A stretch of DNA of 64,000 nucleotides from Aliiglaciecola sp. LCG003. GTDB taxonomy: Bacteria; Pseudomonadota; Gammaproteobacteria; Enterobacterales; Alteromonadaceae. The notes beneath the pieces are model-generated. The model did no database searches. It was not told where the DNA came from and was given only the letters and a program-made list of their open reading frames with translations. The stretch covers positions 620,001-684,000 of the forward strand of contig NZ_CP128185.1 in NCBI RefSeq assembly GCF_030316135.1. The letters run 5' to 3'. This document shows positions 22,483 through 31,358 of the stretch, piece after piece (position 1 is the stretch's first letter; every line of letters starts with the position of its first letter). Position numbers and translations under genes: made by a program.

Positions 22483-23907
22483 ATGCTTAAACGATTGATT
22501 TTAGCCACATTTGCTTGTCTTACCGTAGCATGTGGCAGTGATATAAACCCTGCACCAAAGCAAACGGTCATGCTTGCTAGCGAACCGGCCCAAGCCAATG
22601 TGCCTGCCAATGATGATAATTGCGTGGCCGAAGCTAGTTGGTTCCCCCACAGCCAAACGCCTTTCCCCGATGGCAACACATTTAACGGTAAAACCAACTG
22701 TGCATTTCATCGGTGGTCGTGGCAGATGTTTTTGTGGCTAACCCAGCCCGTGGATGGCAAGCCTCGATTTCTCAAAATGCAAAGCCCATATGACATGCTT
22801 GGCATTGAGGATCGTGAAAGTATGTTGCCCCGTTTAACAAAGTCTGCTCATCCTCGTTCTATGGATGAATATTTGCAGGCCGGTACTGAAGGGATCCTGA
22901 TAGACCAAAACGGTAAAGCGGTTTACTACTCACAGTACGTTAATGATGAGTTTGTTAACTTCATCGAAGGCAAGCATCCAGACAACAAAATTAACCTGAC
23001 TATTCCGTTGAATGTGCAACAGTTCCCAGCGGATAAATCATTCCCAGTTAATGCCATTGAATTAAAAGCTTCGTGGAAAATACTTGCGCCTGATGAAGAC
23101 ACCCGAAATCTTTATACTATGGAGTCTTCGGTATTTAAGTTAGCAAATAAAAACGGCAAAATAGTGGTGGATGACAAAAGTTCAATGAAGGTGCTTTTAG
23201 GTCTGGTTGGATTTCATATTGCAGGCGTAGTAAAAGGTCACCCCGAAATGATTTGGGCTACCTTTGAGCATCAAGGTAATGCACCTGATGTGCCAGCAGA
23301 CTATGACTTCAGCAATCCAACCACAGCTGTATCAAAGGATAATTTCACCTTTTATAAAGCCAATACGCCTTATTCTGGATGCAACATAAACCCCGCCAAT
23401 TCACCCGTGTTAAAACTCGATCAGGACAAGCAGACGTTGACACCAGTAACTCAGATGTGTCGTCGTTATGCATTAGGTAATGATGCCAATCAAACCACCA
23501 TGTCGGTACCAACAAACATCAAGGTCGTCACTGATTTGAATAAAAGCGTCGCCAGTCAATTTAAAGATGCAGGCGTGTGGTCAAAATATGCTGAAGTGGG
23601 TGCCATTTGGTTTAAAGGACCCAACAGGTTAAAGCCTGGCATGGCGATAGCGACAGACTTTGAAGGTGATCAGCAATTGTTAATCGGCTCGCTGCGGTTG
23701 TCCAATGCCAGTATTGAGACCTTTACCCAAACACAAAGCACCATGTACAACTGTTTCCGCTGCCACAATACCAGTCAGCGTTTCCCAGATGACACCAAAT
23801 TAGCGCCACTAAAACCGATGAATTTGAATATCAGCCATGCATTCATGAATATCTACTTTTGGTCGCAAACGCTTCAACTTCAGGCTTCAGCAGCCAGCAC
23901 GCACTAG
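22483..23907 (+). CDS. mono-haem c-type cytochrome-like lipoprotein
   Basis: The 474-residue product begins with a lipoprotein signal ending in LTVACGS (Cys at residue 17). A single haem-binding CxxCH motif, CFRCH, is at residues 424-428 near the C-terminus, within YNCFRCHNTSQRFP. The long region before it is rich in Trp and aromatic residues (HRWSWQMFLWLTQP) and has no family I recognise. It is 29 bp upstream of the LodA-like gene, so the two are almost certainly cotranscribed. A periplasmic electron-transfer partner of the quinone oxidase is plausible, although known LodA-type enzymes use oxygen directly. Haem attachment is predicted from the motif only. Confidence 0.8.
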   Translation: MLKRLILATFACLTVACGSDINPAPKQTVMLASEPAQANVPANDDNCVAEASWFPHSQTPFPDGNTFNGKTNCAFHRWSWQMFLWLTQPVDGKPRFLKMQSPYDMLGIEDRESMLPRLTKSAHPRSMDEYLQAGTEGILIDQNGKAVYYSQYVNDEFVNFIEGKHPDNKINLTIPLNVQQFPADKSFPVNAIELKASWKILAPDEDTRNLYTMESSVFKLANKNGKIVVDDKSSMKVLLGLVGFHIAGVVKGHPEMIWATFEHQGNAPDVPADYDFSNPTTAVSKDNFTFYKANTPYSGCNINPANSPVLKLDQDKQTLTPVTQMCRRYALGNDANQTTMSVPTNIKVVTDLNKSVASQFKDAGVWSKYAEVGAIWFKGPNRLKPGMAIATDFEGDQQLLIGSLRLSNASIETFTQTQSTMYNCFRCHNTSQRFPDDTKLAPLKPMNLNISHAFMNIYFWSQTLQLQASAASTH

Positions 23908-23936
23908 ATGTGTTTAAATTTGAAAGGTAAAAAATA

Positions 23937-26003
23937 ATGACAACTTCAATTTTTCGCATTCACCCCACGATTAATTTTTCTCGGGTTGGTACTAGCTCTG
24001 ATTACTACATAGCCCCGGAAACGGCCTCCGGCGAGCTGCTCGATCAAGAGAGTGGCTTATTCGGTGGTTTGCCCATTAAAAGAGATACCGAAGATACACC
24101 GATCACCGACAAGGATTTTCGCGACACTAACGAGAATGTATTACGACAAGCCGCGCGGTTTAAAATATTTGTGTATGATTCTGAGCAGACGACTTACCCC
24201 TCTGAAGACCCTGGCAAAGAGATCCAAATTGGTGACAGTGTTGGCGGTAAAATTATTAAGGATATTGTTTGGACTGTTCATGTCGCCAACAAAAAGAATA
24301 ACAATTACAAGATTACTAGTGTTGTTGACGGCAAGATCACCGAAGAAGGGATTATCGCCTATGAAAATGGTGGCACACCACCGATACGCAATCCCAGTTT
24401 TGGAGCAGATTTAAACGCCAGTGACAGACGCAAGAAATTGGTCATTGATCCCGGTCCTCGAACGATTACATCTTCTACATCAAGCTCAGTCACAGTTAAA
24501 TTTGATAAAGACACGGCCCGAACCTATGCCGATAATAGTGGGCAAATCATGGCAGTGAAAAACTATCCGGTAAGCTTTCCTGCTATGCACTTTGATACCA
24601 ATACCCATCCAGACTTAGGACCTATCGATACATTGGGTGAACTACAGATTGAAAAGAATACTGGCCGACTAGTGGTGACGGGAGGCTATGGAAGAACCTT
24701 TTCATTTAAAGATGCCCAAGGCAAAAGTCCCAGTCTGGTTGATGCAATTGACAATGATGGTTGGTTTGATGATGTTTCAGATGGTCCGGTAAATGCCGTG
24801 ATCTTATTTAATGATGGTAGCTCCGCTGAAGTGGTGGGCGGCTGGGTTGTCTGCACAGACCCAGCCTATGCACCGCAAACCCGTAATGTAGTTTCGACTT
24901 GGGATGATATGTTTTTCGCGTGGGTCGAGCAGCTTAATTTAATTCCACAAATGTTTGATGGCAATTATAAAACCGACTACCAGGCTTCATTTTACAGTGA
25001 TGTTTTACCGGTTTTCCACGGTGCATTTTTGCAACGCTGGAATACCAATTTACCCAATAAGGGAGTGAAGGGTCACAATTGGGTTGCATCGATCAAACCT
25101 TCTGACGATCCCAGTCAGAAAATACCTAACTTTCTGGATCTGATCCGGGACCCGAACGCTCCCGAGGATGACAACGAGCGCACAAAAATGCCGTTGTCAC
25201 TAGGCGATGCAACTAAGAGCTTCTTGTCGGTCACGCCCACCCAGTATTTTTTGATGACCCAATGGTACGCGGGTAAAAGTACCGCTAGTCCGCGGGCGCT
25301 AGGTGAAGGCGAAAATCTCGACAAGGTGGTACTGGAAAACTGTCTAGGGGGACGATATTCACCGGGAATAGACTTAACCTTTATTGTACGAGACGTTAAT
25401 TTGTATAAACAAAACTGGCAAGGTCAAGTAGGGCCGTTCAGGGTCAACCAGCAAGTATTGAATTATGCTTCTGCTGATTCGACACAACCCTTCTTGCAAG
25501 AAGGTTATGTGCCTCTGAGAACTGACGGCGCAGAGCCAGGCGATCTGAGCAAATTTATGTCGCAACCCTGGCACACTGATTACAACAGTTGCGCGGTACA
25601 TACGCCGGATCCCAACCCTTCTGCTAACAACACTCTTTACTGGTCATGGCCGGCGCAGCGTCCCGTTCAGGTTCATCCTGCAGAATTGTGTAGTTACAAT
25701 CAATCTGAGCAAACATGGTCGCTGGGTGGGCAATTGTTCAGTATTCGCGGCGATAAGCAGGGCGATGCTAATTTAACCCACACAAACCTGCCCAAAAATG
25801 AAGGTAAGTACCAGAAATACATCGATTTTATGCCAAACTGGCATAAAACCGGTTTTATCATTCAAGGGGTACAAATTGCTGATAAGTTCGGCGGCAATTA
25901 TGGCAGTGACAAGTTTCTCGAAGTGGCCAGCCTATATAAATCCCAAGGCAATATAGTGCAACCTTGGCCCACAGCCGATGAAACCTTACCGAATAACGGC
26001 TAA
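23937..26003 (+). CDS. LodA/GoxA-family CTQ-dependent amino-acid oxidase
   Basis: The 688-residue protein opens with IFRIHPTINFSRVGTSSDYY and continues with DLNASDRRKKLVIDPGPRTI, both characteristic of LodA-like proteins. LodA (lysine epsilon-oxidase) and GoxA (glycine oxidase) carry a cysteine tryptophylquinone cofactor built from one Cys and one Trp. The likely residues here are Cys469 in LENCLGGRYSPGID and Trp545 in QPWHTDYNSC. No classical signal peptide is present, as in the known members. Activity releases aldehyde or glyoxylate, ammonia and hydrogen peroxide, which is antibacterial. The substrate cannot be told from sequence. The lodB-like gene follows at 8 bp. Confidence 0.88.
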   Translation: MTTSIFRIHPTINFSRVGTSSDYYIAPETASGELLDQESGLFGGLPIKRDTEDTPITDKDFRDTNENVLRQAARFKIFVYDSEQTTYPSEDPGKEIQIGDSVGGKIIKDIVWTVHVANKKNNNYKITSVVDGKITEEGIIAYENGGTPPIRNPSFGADLNASDRRKKLVIDPGPRTITSSTSSSVTVKFDKDTARTYADNSGQIMAVKNYPVSFPAMHFDTNTHPDLGPIDTLGELQIEKNTGRLVVTGGYGRTFSFKDAQGKSPSLVDAIDNDGWFDDVSDGPVNAVILFNDGSSAEVVGGWVVCTDPAYAPQTRNVVSTWDDMFFAWVEQLNLIPQMFDGNYKTDYQASFYSDVLPVFHGAFLQRWNTNLPNKGVKGHNWVASIKPSDDPSQKIPNFLDLIRDPNAPEDDNERTKMPLSLGDATKSFLSVTPTQYFLMTQWYAGKSTASPRALGEGENLDKVVLENCLGGRYSPGIDLTFIVRDVNLYKQNWQGQVGPFRVNQQVLNYASADSTQPFLQEGYVPLRTDGAEPGDLSKFMSQPWHTDYNSCAVHTPDPNPSANNTLYWSWPAQRPVQVHPAELCSYNQSEQTWSLGGQLFSIRGDKQGDANLTHTNLPKNEGKYQKYIDFMPNWHKTGFIIQGVQIADKFGGNYGSDKFLEVASLYKSQGNIVQPWPTADETLPNNG

Positions 26004-26011
26004 TTCCCCAG

Positions 26012-27142
26012 ATGTTGGATGACTCAGATGTGGCGATAATTGGCGCAGGCCCAGCGGCCTGTGCCACTGCGCTATCGCTGCATAAGCTAAATCCAAGCAT
26101 CAAAATTTGTCTATTCGATGCGGCCACAGGTCCGCAATCCAAAGTAGGGGAATCTATCCCACCTGCAGCTGTGCCAATTTTATTTAACCTGCTCGGTGAT
26201 GCTATTTATCCATTTTTAGACCTGCAACAAGCCTGTCCGGGTAATATCTCTATTTGGGGCGACAATAAACCAGGACACAACGATTTTATCTATGATTTAA
26301 ATGGGCAGGGTTATCATCTTAATCGTCAAACACTTGAAAAATTACTCCAGGATAAGGTGCAACAGGCGGGCATGAAACTATTCTACCAGCATCGTCTGTG
26401 TAGTGCCGATACGGATCAACATAGGGTTAATCTTACATTTAATCACAACCATCATACTCGCCATATTAGTAGCCGATTTGCGGTGGATGCCAGCGGCATT
26501 AGCAGAGCGCTAATCCAACAAATTGGTGTGGCTAAAAACGTGTTGGATGAAGTGATATTTATCTGCGCGACTTTTGATGCGCAGAATGTCGCAGGTAAGC
26601 TGCGACATACCCTAATAGAAGCCACCGCGGATGGCTGGTGGTATTGCGCGTTGTTACCTGATAATAAATATATCGTGTCTTTTTGCAGTGATAGACAACA
26701 GTTACAAGCTAAACGGCTCGACCGTCCAGATGTTTGGTTAGCAGAACTGCATAAATCCACCTTGTTGCGCGAACAACTAGTGCCAAGTGATTTAGCACAG
26801 GTAAAATTATTTAAGCGAGCGGCACCTTCGAGCATTTTATCAACAGTGATTGGTCAGTGCTGGATGGCGGTGGGGGATGCTGCCAGCAGCTTTGATCCCA
26901 TTACGTCAGCAGGCATTACTAAGAGTCTACTTAATGGCCAGCAAGCCGCTGATGCTATTCATAGTTGGCTGACAGATGCTAGTCGATTGAGTATGTCGCA
27001 TTATCAGAACGAGGTTTTTAACGACTTCAACCAGTATGTTGGCTTGCGCGATAGTTTATATCGAAGTGAAGTTAGGTTTGACTGCGAGCCATTTTGGTAT
27101 CGACGAAATCATCTTGGCCAATCCACAGCTAATGGATACTAG
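26012..27142 (+). CDS. LodB/GoxB-like flavoprotein for CTQ maturation
   Basis: The 376-residue protein has an N-terminal FAD-binding motif, DVAIIGAGPAACATAL, and the second FAD motif CWMAVGDAASSFDPITSAGI about residues 284-303. This is the fold of tryptophan-halogenase and geranylgeranyl-reductase-type flavoproteins. LodB-type proteins are encoded next to lodA and are needed to form the tryptophylquinone of the partner oxidase. The 8-bp gap from the lodA-like gene supports that role. It lacks the Lys-containing halogenase motif as far as I can see, so halogenase activity is unlikely. Confidence 0.87.
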   Translation: MLDDSDVAIIGAGPAACATALSLHKLNPSIKICLFDAATGPQSKVGESIPPAAVPILFNLLGDAIYPFLDLQQACPGNISIWGDNKPGHNDFIYDLNGQGYHLNRQTLEKLLQDKVQQAGMKLFYQHRLCSADTDQHRVNLTFNHNHHTRHISSRFAVDASGISRALIQQIGVAKNVLDEVIFICATFDAQNVAGKLRHTLIEATADGWWYCALLPDNKYIVSFCSDRQQLQAKRLDRPDVWLAELHKSTLLREQLVPSDLAQVKLFKRAAPSSILSTVIGQCWMAVGDAASSFDPITSAGITKSLLNGQQAADAIHSWLTDASRLSMSHYQNEVFNDFNQYVGLRDSLYRSEVRFDCEPFWYRRNHLGQSTANGY

Positions 27143-29855: not shown

Positions 29856-31358
29856 TTAGTTATCTATAACCGGGGTCTCGTCTGTGATGGGCGCGGCGTT
29901 CACATCACTATCAAGTTTCTCATTGGCTAAGCGCACTCCTTTAGCGTAGTCAGGATGCACTTTCTCAAGCACCGCATACCAACGCTCTTTGACGGCATCT
30001 GAGCAAGGGCCCATGGCGGCAGCATAATTGTTGTATAAACGCTGCTTTTGTTCGTCACTAAACAGATTATACAGTGCGCGAGGTTGGACATAATCAATCG
30101 CTTCCTCAACTTGATCATATCTGGCTGCATCGCCATCTATTTTAAGTGGCGGCTCAGCGACGCTTTCATTGGCGACCGGGCCATTGTGTTGATTCGGTTC
30201 ATAATACGCATCAGGATTGTCAAAATCATTGGTAAAGAATCGCATCGAACCGTCTTTATGGTAATGATTAATCTTGCTATTTTTCGCTGCATTAGCTGGT
30301 AGGGCTTCGTAATGAGTACCTAGTCTATATCTGTGCGCGTCGGCATATGACCAGACTCTGGCCTGCAACATTTTGTCCGGACTAAAGCCGATTCCCGGAA
30401 CTACATTGGATGGACTATAAGCGGCATTCTCAACCATTTGAAAATAGTTTTCTGGATTTTTATTCATCTCCAGCTCACCTACTTCAATCAGTGGGTAATC
30501 ATCGTGAGGCCATACTTTGGTCACATCAAAGGGATTATATTCCTGTTTCCCAGCCTCTTCTTCAGGCATAACTTGGATAAACATAGTCCATTTTGGGTAG
30601 TCGCCATTTTCAATGGCGCTAAATAAATCCTCTTGGTAGGCCTCTCGGGTTTTACCAATCCGATGTTCGGCTTCTTCGTTGGTGTAATGCTCATGGCCTT
30701 GATGGGTTTTAAAATGGAATTTGACCCAAAAGCGTTCGCCATTTTTGTTCCACATACTGAAAGTATGGCTGCCATATCCATTCATATGCATAGGTGTTTT
30801 AGGGATGCCGCGGTCTGACATCAAAATGGTGACCTGGTGGACTGATTCAGGTTGGGCTGCCCAGAAATCAAACATCGCCTCGGGGGAGCGTAAATTGGTT
30901 TTCGGGTGACGTTTTTGAGTACGGATAAAATCAGGAAATTTAAATGCATCGCGGACAAAAAATACCGGCGTATTATTGCCCACTAAATCCCAATTTCCTT
31001 GTTCGGTATAGAACTTTAAACTAAAGCCGCGCACATCACGTTCAATATCTGCCGCACCTGACTCGCCTGCTACCGTCGACCACCGACTCAATACTTCGGT
31101 TTGTTTACCCACTTGTGAGAACAAATCGGCACAGGTGTATTGGCTGATATCGTGAGTTACAGTAAATTTTCCTTGCAGCCCCCACCCTTTAGCGTGCACC
31201 GCTCGCTCAGGAATTCGCTCACGGTTTTGATGGGCTAGTTTTTCAATTAGCTGATAATCTTCTAACAATGCAGGGCCGCGCTTTCCGGCAGTTTTGGTGG
31301 TTTTATTGCTTGGAACCGGTGCTCCGGCGGACGTGGTAAGGGTTGGCTTATTACTCAT
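29856..31358 (-). CDS. monofunctional haem catalase
   Basis: The 500-residue enzyme has the catalytic His55 in [13 protein letters not shown], the conserved Asn in [17 protein letters not shown] and the proximal haem ligand Tyr in [14 protein letters not shown]. The size is that of small-subunit (clade 3) catalases such as KatA. It converts hydrogen peroxide to water and oxygen in the cytoplasm. It converges on hrpB and lies within 3 kb of the peroxide-generating LodA-like gene, which may be coincidence. The divergent gene is mrcB, with 259 bp between the two starts; I see no clear OxyR site there. Confidence 0.97.

Follow-up and report, generated by a model that had tools for sequence, protein, structure and literature searches.

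In the literature consulted, enzymes of the LodA family are described as oxidases which release hydrogen peroxide (H2O2) and are encoded in a two-gene operon: in the lod and gox operons of Marinomonas mediterranea, the gene for a cysteine tryptophylquinone (CTQ) enzyme is followed by that of a flavoprotein maturase. In quinohaemoprotein amine dehydrogenase (QHNDH, encoded by qhpABCDEFG), CTQ stands beside c-type haem and a maturase dependent on flavin adenine dinucleotide (FAD) is involved; its 9-kDa CTQ subunit, which contains extra thioether bonds and crosses through a transporter of its own, is paired with a subunit carrying two c-haems (PMC7876137). Moreover, some LodA proteins (group III, Campillo-Brocal 2015) are fused at their N-terminus to a catalase-like haem domain (PMC4417212). 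The subject of the present study is a three-gene unit, the trio, found in a stretch of 64,000 nucleotides (the window) from Aliiglaciecola sp. LCG003 (contig NZ_CP128185.1, positions 620,001 to 684,000), in which the genes for an exported mono-haem protein, a LodA-like enzyme and a LodB-like flavoprotein follow each other on the + strand, with gaps of 29 bp and then 8 bp.

The trio shares with the lod and gox operons the succession of CTQ enzyme and flavoprotein maturase, as well as the conserved CTQ cysteine and tryptophan, but it begins with a haem gene, and those of its LodA-like proteins that were scored stay well short of the equivalog cut-offs for LodA and GoxA. With QHNDH it has in common the association of CTQ, c-type haem and a FAD-dependent maturase; however, neither the di-haem alpha subunit nor the small, thioether-bonded CTQ gamma subunit is present, the trio having a single CxxCH and a LodA-type protein of 688 amino acids (aa). 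In the group III proteins LodA is also tied to a haem-binding fold, but there within one chain, whereas here the partner is a separate exported c-type protein. Such a unit was not found in the literature on LodA, GoxA, CTQ, cytochromes and P460 (titles and abstract openings of the papers listed, with most subscription journals outside coverage): the words cytochrome, upstream and lipoprotein do not occur in PMC4417212, where 168 lodA-like genes were kept, and the portion consulted of a 2025 review on P460 makes no mention of LodA or tryptophylquinone.

Conservation, co-inheritance and acquisition of the trio

An earlier note on this DNA had suggested looking for the same gene order in other genomes, and the trio has turned out to be widely conserved and co-inherited. 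A scan of genome contigs with one peptide pattern (residues 253-261 of the haem protein) gave 521 matches, including 512 relatives, the best 80 of which were kept as loci. In 36 of these 80 haem-seeded loci (L033-L064, L066-L068 and L070), the next gene downstream, on the strand of the haem gene, is lodA. It is followed by a LodB-like gene in 30 of the 36, and in the other six the contig breaks off within lodA or shortly behind it. By record title or the origins assigned in the tree, the hosts of the linked trio are Gammaproteobacteria, Alphaproteobacteria, Bacteroidota, one Verrucomicrobium and unassigned bins, that is, three named phyla. The gene order is the same, with annotated neighbours, in two plasmid loci, one of Pseudoalteromonas xiamenensis and one of Xanthomonas sacchari. 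A second haem-family gene occurs in three loci (L048, L068, L070). The surrounding genes were clustered for 41 linked loci, some of which have short flanks, and outside the trio no cluster was represented in more than four of them.

Since loci found through the haem protein are a biased set, the search was repeated from the LodA side. LodA was found in 10 of the 369 genomes of a class sample; immediately upstream of the best non-self match (G609, 43% identity, 463 bits), which was reached through LodA alone, stands the haem gene, and the weaker class-sample genomes that were fetched (192 bits at most) have none beside LodA, one LodA-bearing genome (G637) lying outside the fetched set. In a Pseudomonadota sample of 398 genomes, 12 had LodA and 16 a member of the haem family; three had both, and of these only the window's own pair is adjacent; the idea that every LodA is paired with this haem protein was rejected on this evidence. 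Over the two samples, one of the 17 other LodA-bearing genomes fetched is linked. Among 32 plasmid records with LodA, identity exceeds 50% in two (810 and 671 bits), precisely those that are linked, and the next reaches 225 bits, the weaker records being judged against 20 listed of the 23 plasmid records with a haem-family match (tblastn).

The two lines of inheritance could also be compared directly. In a tree of 53 LodA proteins (quick method, no bootstrap, characterised LodA and GoxA left out), 35 of the 36 linked proteins fall on one side of a branch with a value of 100 in the Shimodaira-Hasegawa-like approximate likelihood ratio test (SH-aLRT), with no unlinked protein among them. The LodA of a cyanobacterial locus (L071), in which lodA is divergent from the haem gene, falls among the unlinked ones. 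Furthermore, Mantel correlations between protein distances over 23 loci amount to r=0.958 for haem protein and LodA, 0.853 for LodB and LodA and 0.864 for haem protein and LodB, values as high as those observed being reached in 0 of 999 permutations. A chance neighbourhood was rejected on the strength of the 36 loci out of 80, the reciprocal search, the tree branch and the correlation of 0.958.

With regard to its origin, the genes for 2'-5' RNA ligase (ThpR) and HrpB, which flank the trio, are direct neighbours in all seven congeneric genomes examined, and no trio gene is present in the 9-kb junction stretches of these seven. In the sample of relatives, the haem protein occurs in 8 of 98 genomes, the window's own included, and in none of the eight congeneric ones (one of them, G005, is 59% complete and outside the junction comparison). 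Because the ThpR-HrpB junction is intact and trio-free in the relatives, the trio most likely arrived as a unit, a self-contained and probably horizontally acquired module, its loss in the congeners being a less favoured alternative. The G+C content of the trio stretch (0.43-0.48) is like that of its surroundings, and nothing convincing was found in the way of repeats at the insertion edges. A catalase gene (PF00199, 591 bits) is located two genes downstream of the trio, at 29856-31358 of the window; the HrpB-region stretches of the seven congeneric genomes gave no catalase match, so that the window differs locally from these genomes in this gene as well as in the trio. As a conserved member of the unit it was rejected, not being recurrent around linked loci.

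The haem protein and its family

The three open reading frames that the earlier note had placed in one operon with the gaps given above are all present (Table 1). Promoter-like sites number 12, against 10.0 in shuffled sequences, and terminator-like sites 8, against 4.9.

Table 1. Position of the trio genes and of selected codons in the window
Feature	Coordinates	Strand	Remarks
Exported mono-haem protein, 474 aa	22483..23907	+	Leads the trio; its family is unnamed
CxxCH, predicted haem c attachment motif (C424-H428)	23752..23766	+	Invariant in family alignments
Lys195 codon	23065..23067	+	Invariant; weak alignment with haem-cross-linking Lys78 of McP460
LodA-like CTQ enzyme (688 aa) without a recognisable signal peptide	23937..26003	+	PF17990 and PF18417
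Cys552 codon, predicted CTQ cysteine (LodA C516)	25590..25592	+	Alignment with LodA
Trp571 codon, predicted CTQ tryptophan (LodA W581)	25647..25649	+	Alignment with LodA
LodB-like flavoprotein, putative CTQ maturase, 376 aa	26012..27142	+	NF038171 best model

The window haem protein contains exactly one CxxCH (residues 424-428, near the C-terminus), as had been noticed earlier. The claim that its family is not a recognised one holds for Pfam and NCBIfam: the window protein has no match in either up to E=1, and none of nine divergent members passes any cut-off in Pfam. The sole phmmer match, a ferredoxin subunit (E=0.0093, residues 10-82), was taken as chance. In every row of two alignments (A1, 19 of 19; A2, 56 of 56), the two cysteines and the histidine of the CxxCH are conserved, as are K195, H245, P254, W258, T260, Y369 and E412; A2 holds 56 of 83 listed rows, those dropped being mostly Flavobacterium- or Aquimarina-type near-duplicates and the incomplete L069, and its invariance at residues 253-261, though not that of A1, is partly built in by the scanning pattern. 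A nearly invariant cysteine pair, C47 and C73, fits an exported haem protein. Members with a single CxxCH are also carried by IMG/VR viral contigs (L113, L114): the viral contigs gave 0 matches with a single haem protein as query and two loci with the family alignment.

The N-terminus of the window protein is of the export type, with a lipobox-like LTVAC and Cys17, so that the term lipoprotein used in the earlier note stands for this copy. As a family trait it does not: a lipobox-like motif was detected in 17 of the 56 A2 rows (by a regular expression which misses some likely lipoboxes), and among the rows without it there are many whose start resembles a signal peptide or whose N-terminus forms an anchor. 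A hydrophobicity mark at the N-terminus is passed by 53 of the 56 rows. Judged from these predicted signals, export is typical of the family and lipidation is not. An anchoring role, also put forward earlier, is weakened by the lack of conserved lipidation, and a lipid anchor as the purpose of the family was rejected, the lipobox being found in a minority of rows.

As regards the fold, AlphaFold2 predicts the window protein with confidence (predicted local distance difference test, pLDDT, 86.2; predicted TM-score, pTM, 0.85), and a second model, of a distant family member, is weaker (pLDDT 71.8). In Foldseek searches against the PDB, ranks 1-4 for the window model are cytochrome c'-beta or P460 (E 0.16-0.25, prob 0.15-0.21) and ranks 1-11 for the second model are P460 chains (E 0.044-0.22); neither model has a match at E<=0.001, and the TM-score by target length is about 0.3. 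The cytochrome P460 family PF16694 gives no match to the window protein up to E=1, and of nine relatives a single one is matched, at 13 bits (E=0.14). PDB profile searches yielded nothing below E=0.29. With hhalign, only the CxxCH segment of the family aligns with P460 (Prob 22.6-24.1). When the haem motif is cut out, the best alignment sets FPVNAIELKASWK, which contains K195, against WPDGAILAKIVLK of P460 (Prob 1-2%; P 0.025-0.058, vs 0.39-0.49 with a reversed profile); a cut alignment in which the motif is kept reaches Prob 44.5-45.5 and P ~2e-4, leaning on the CxxCH and beginning beyond K195. A statistically significant sequence link between the haem family and P460 was thus sought by hhalign, PDB profiles and PF16694, and not found.

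The P460 lysine aligned with K195 is residue 78 of McP460 (via L147; counted in the printed chain), and Lys78 of McP460 is the haem-cross-linking lysine (PMC6427953; Table 2 of PMC11928373). In the P460 alignment (A5, a mixed set of 15 of the 19 P460 loci examined), lysine occupies the cross-link column in 5 of 15 rows and the remainder look like c'-beta. The correspondence of the two lysines may be called suggestive, and is no proof of P460 membership. Taken together, the haem protein resembles cytochrome P460/c'-beta in its beta-rich haem-protein model, its C-terminal CxxCH and the top Foldseek ranks obtained with two models, and P460 in the weakly aligning lysine, but differs in being about three times as long, with no Pfam match and no significant fold or profile match; it is possibly an enlarged relative of this fold class.

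The family often, although not always, keeps company with oxidative enzymes. In Azospirillum ramasamyi (L031:5770-9611) a member annotated 'cytochrome C' is followed by a FAD-SLDH small subunit (PF12318, 24.4 bits vs cut-off 24.2) and a GMC oxidoreductase, a pair beside which a cytochrome subunit is usual. In Gloeothece verrucosa (L028:5992-8862) a ThcOx-type SagB dehydrogenase is encoded after the haem-family gene, in a cluster that also contains TOMM genes. Other relatives away from lodA adjoin a tyrosinase, ferritin-like PF12902 proteins and propeller proteins; PF12902 genes near haem-family genes are located at L018:9298-10425 and L069:4218-5291. In 20 Flavobacterium-type loci the haem gene is directly preceded by L073:6350-6763 or one of 19 similar genes (137- to 163-aa proteins), the product being DUF1842 (PF08896) in L073, the one tested. 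PF12902, tyrosinase and catalase domains have been reported around or in LodA genes (PMC4417212), and PF12902 near fungal lodA genes too.

The LodA-like and LodB-like proteins

The identities first assigned to the second and third proteins are supported by profile matches. The window LodA-like protein contains the domains LodA_N and LodA_C, matching PF17990 (E=1.6e-49, 169.3 bits vs cut-off 26.3) and PF18417 (E=3.2e-35, 121.5 bits vs cut-off 25), and, among solved structures compared by sequence, LodA (3weu, E=1.9e-39) and GoxA (6vmw, E=1.4e-13). Its D548, presumably the counterpart of LodA Asp512 (read from a pairwise alignment), is invariant in 33 of 33 rows of the LodA alignment (A3, 33 of 38 rows, incomplete ones dropped). 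The positions aligned with Y211 and K530 of LodA, two residues with a role in that enzyme, differ: the former is mixed, with Lys in 13 of 33 rows (K263 in the window protein), and the latter is Asn in 24 of 33 (N565). The predicted CTQ residues C552 and W571 are invariant in all 33 rows and align with C516 and W581 of LodA (numbering from PMC4417212), the GoxA alignment being one residue off at the tryptophan.

On the curated models, the window protein reaches 215.8 bits for lysine-6-oxidase (NF038172, cut-off 600) and 133.5 bits for GoxA glycine oxidase (NF038173, cut-off 750), and together with four other haem-linked LodA proteins it spans 146-238 and 113-149 bits, respectively; three unlinked LodA proteins score higher (best 339-414), yet pass neither cut-off. 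The antibacterial analogy drawn in the earlier note is weak with scores so far below the cut-offs. For an enzyme in a clade of its own, these sequence features make a lysine oxidase role appear unlikely, and the substrate of the haem-linked enzyme is probably not lysine. None of the three trio proteins has a match in PADLOC.

In 29 of the 33 LodA rows the chain begins with 6-9 residues followed by a conserved HPxI motif; a twin-arginine-like start occurs in 0 of 33, and the hydrophobicity mark is passed by 1 of 33, vs 53 of 56 haem rows (scanned length 45 vs 60). GoxA carries a twin-arginine translocation (Tat) signal (PMC3948610). The window genome also has a second LodA/LodB pair (L014:4255-8300, G000:C1 about 544254-548299), and the 12-kb stretch that holds it contains no gene of the haem family; this LodA is 981 aa long and is extended at its N-terminus by a segment that matches catalase weakly (E=9.7e-5, 22.1 bits, cut-off 25).

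The best model in the library for the third protein is NF038171 (E=1.1e-70, 238.5 bits); as the equivalog cut-off of 400 is not reached, the protein is best termed LodB-like, not LodB. The QhpG model gives 147 bits (cut-off 240). The match to the LodB profile starts at residue 6, and the hydrophobicity mark is uninformative here, being passed by 11 of the 24 rows of A4 (24 of 32 LodB rows, long or incomplete starts dropped).

Possible roles of the haem protein

Tentatively, the haem protein is regarded as a dedicated redox partner which takes reducing equivalents from the reduced CTQ of a distinct LodA clade. The LodB-like flavoprotein would make the CTQ of the LodA-like enzyme, the latter would leave the cytoplasm to meet the exported haem protein, and the reduced quinone would pass electrons to the c-type mono-haem protein, as CTQ does to the c-haems in QHNDH; the linked clade would then work, at least partly, as a quinohaem dehydrogenase instead of a pure H2O2-producing oxidase. 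The sequences themselves show the gene unit, its conservation and co-inheritance, the clade, the CTQ residues, the haem motif and the export-type N-terminus; the presence of haem, the class of the fold, a direct passage of electrons and the exit of LodA from the cytoplasm are what we infer. The dedicated nature of the partner is argued from the occurrence of the trio in 36 of 80 loci, the single tree branch, the closer correlation of haem protein and LodA (0.958) than of LodB and LodA (0.853) and the absence of any other recurrent gene. Its redox nature is suggested by the Azospirillum relative preceding a FAD-SLDH small subunit and a GMC oxidoreductase, by the pairing of a CTQ subunit with a di-c-haem subunit in QHNDH and by three matches to the cytochrome c assembly family PF01578 in the window genome. 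Several points weigh against this proposal, however: the LodA-family enzymes studied so far consume O2 and produce H2O2; the stretches fetched for 43 of the 80 loci showed no lodA (that of L069 ends inside the haem gene), many of these relatives being without an evident adjacent oxidase; the invariant polar set K195, H245, Y369 and E412 resembles that of an active site rather than that of a simple electron carrier; and linked LodA has no recognisable export signal, so that contact with the exported haem protein would depend on a hypothetical export route.

Among the roles imagined in the earlier note, handling peroxide would fit the evidence as accepting electrons would. LodA would make H2O2 with O2, and the exported haem protein would use it as a peroxidase or remove it. 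This comes next in the favoured order and is rather unlikely: the catalase-fused LodA proteins, the catalase match, below the Pfam cut-off, in the second LodA of the window genome, the catalase gene downstream of the trio and the peroxidase-like activity of a cytochrome c'-beta (PMC11928373) all point to it, but that catalase gene is not a conserved part of the unit, and K195 is invariant whereas in P460 the lysine or its cross-link suppresses peroxidase activity (PMC11928373), an objection that holds if the lysines correspond. The same lysine is central to an improbable third reading, namely a P460-type enzyme with a Lys195-haem cross-link, for which the H2O2 of LodA would mature the cross-link or feed the same pathway. 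The weak alignment of K195, the peroxide dependence of P460 cross-link formation (PMC11928373 and, by its title, a 2023 paper cited there) and the P460 and c'-beta chains at the top of the Foldseek lists are in its favour, although the E-values and TM-scores are poor, the motif-less alignment has low probability, the alignment with the motif starts beyond K195 and PF16694 does not match the window protein.

Lower again in the order stands a function in CTQ maturation, the haem protein finishing the cofactor of LodA, as the di-haem MauG does with tryptophan tryptophylquinone (TTQ), after an earlier step by LodB. MauG offers a precedent and a final oxidation by the c-haems of QHNDH has been proposed (PMC7876137); nevertheless, LodB or GoxB is described as the required factor (PMC7876137), 16 of the 17 non-window LodA genomes have no haem-family gene near LodA and 15 of these 16 have a LodB-like gene (in L145 LodA is at the contig end), and the LodB profile match from residue 6 leaves no room for an export signal, which the haem protein does have. 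Finally, that the trio genes are mere neighbours with no functional link is scarcely credible, given the same order in three phyla, one LodA clade, the correlation of 0.958 and the conservation of no other gene, even if many haem relatives lack lodA and most LodA genes lack the haem gene.

Electron transfer from CTQ to haem, which remains the preferred role, might also be part of a broader picture, unlikely as a whole: a widespread, undescribed quinohaem system in which a CTQ enzyme and a giant P460-like protein with a haem-lysine cross-link, two self-made cofactors, would form one mobile module. LodA would give the haem electrons and/or the peroxide that matures the cross-link, and the haem family would be reused as a general redox partner beside GMC/FAD-SLDH, tyrosinase, ThcOx-type nitroreductase and ferritin-like proteins. 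Should a whole clade of LodA proteins, spread over three phyla, have a haem partner of its own, this type of CTQ chemistry would seem to be wired to haem as well, and an unnamed haem family with hundreds of members would gain its first testable function. If the weak fold link is true, tryptophylquinone enzymes would be tied to the P460 fold class, which has been reviewed mainly for hydroxylamine and nitric oxide (NO) chemistry.

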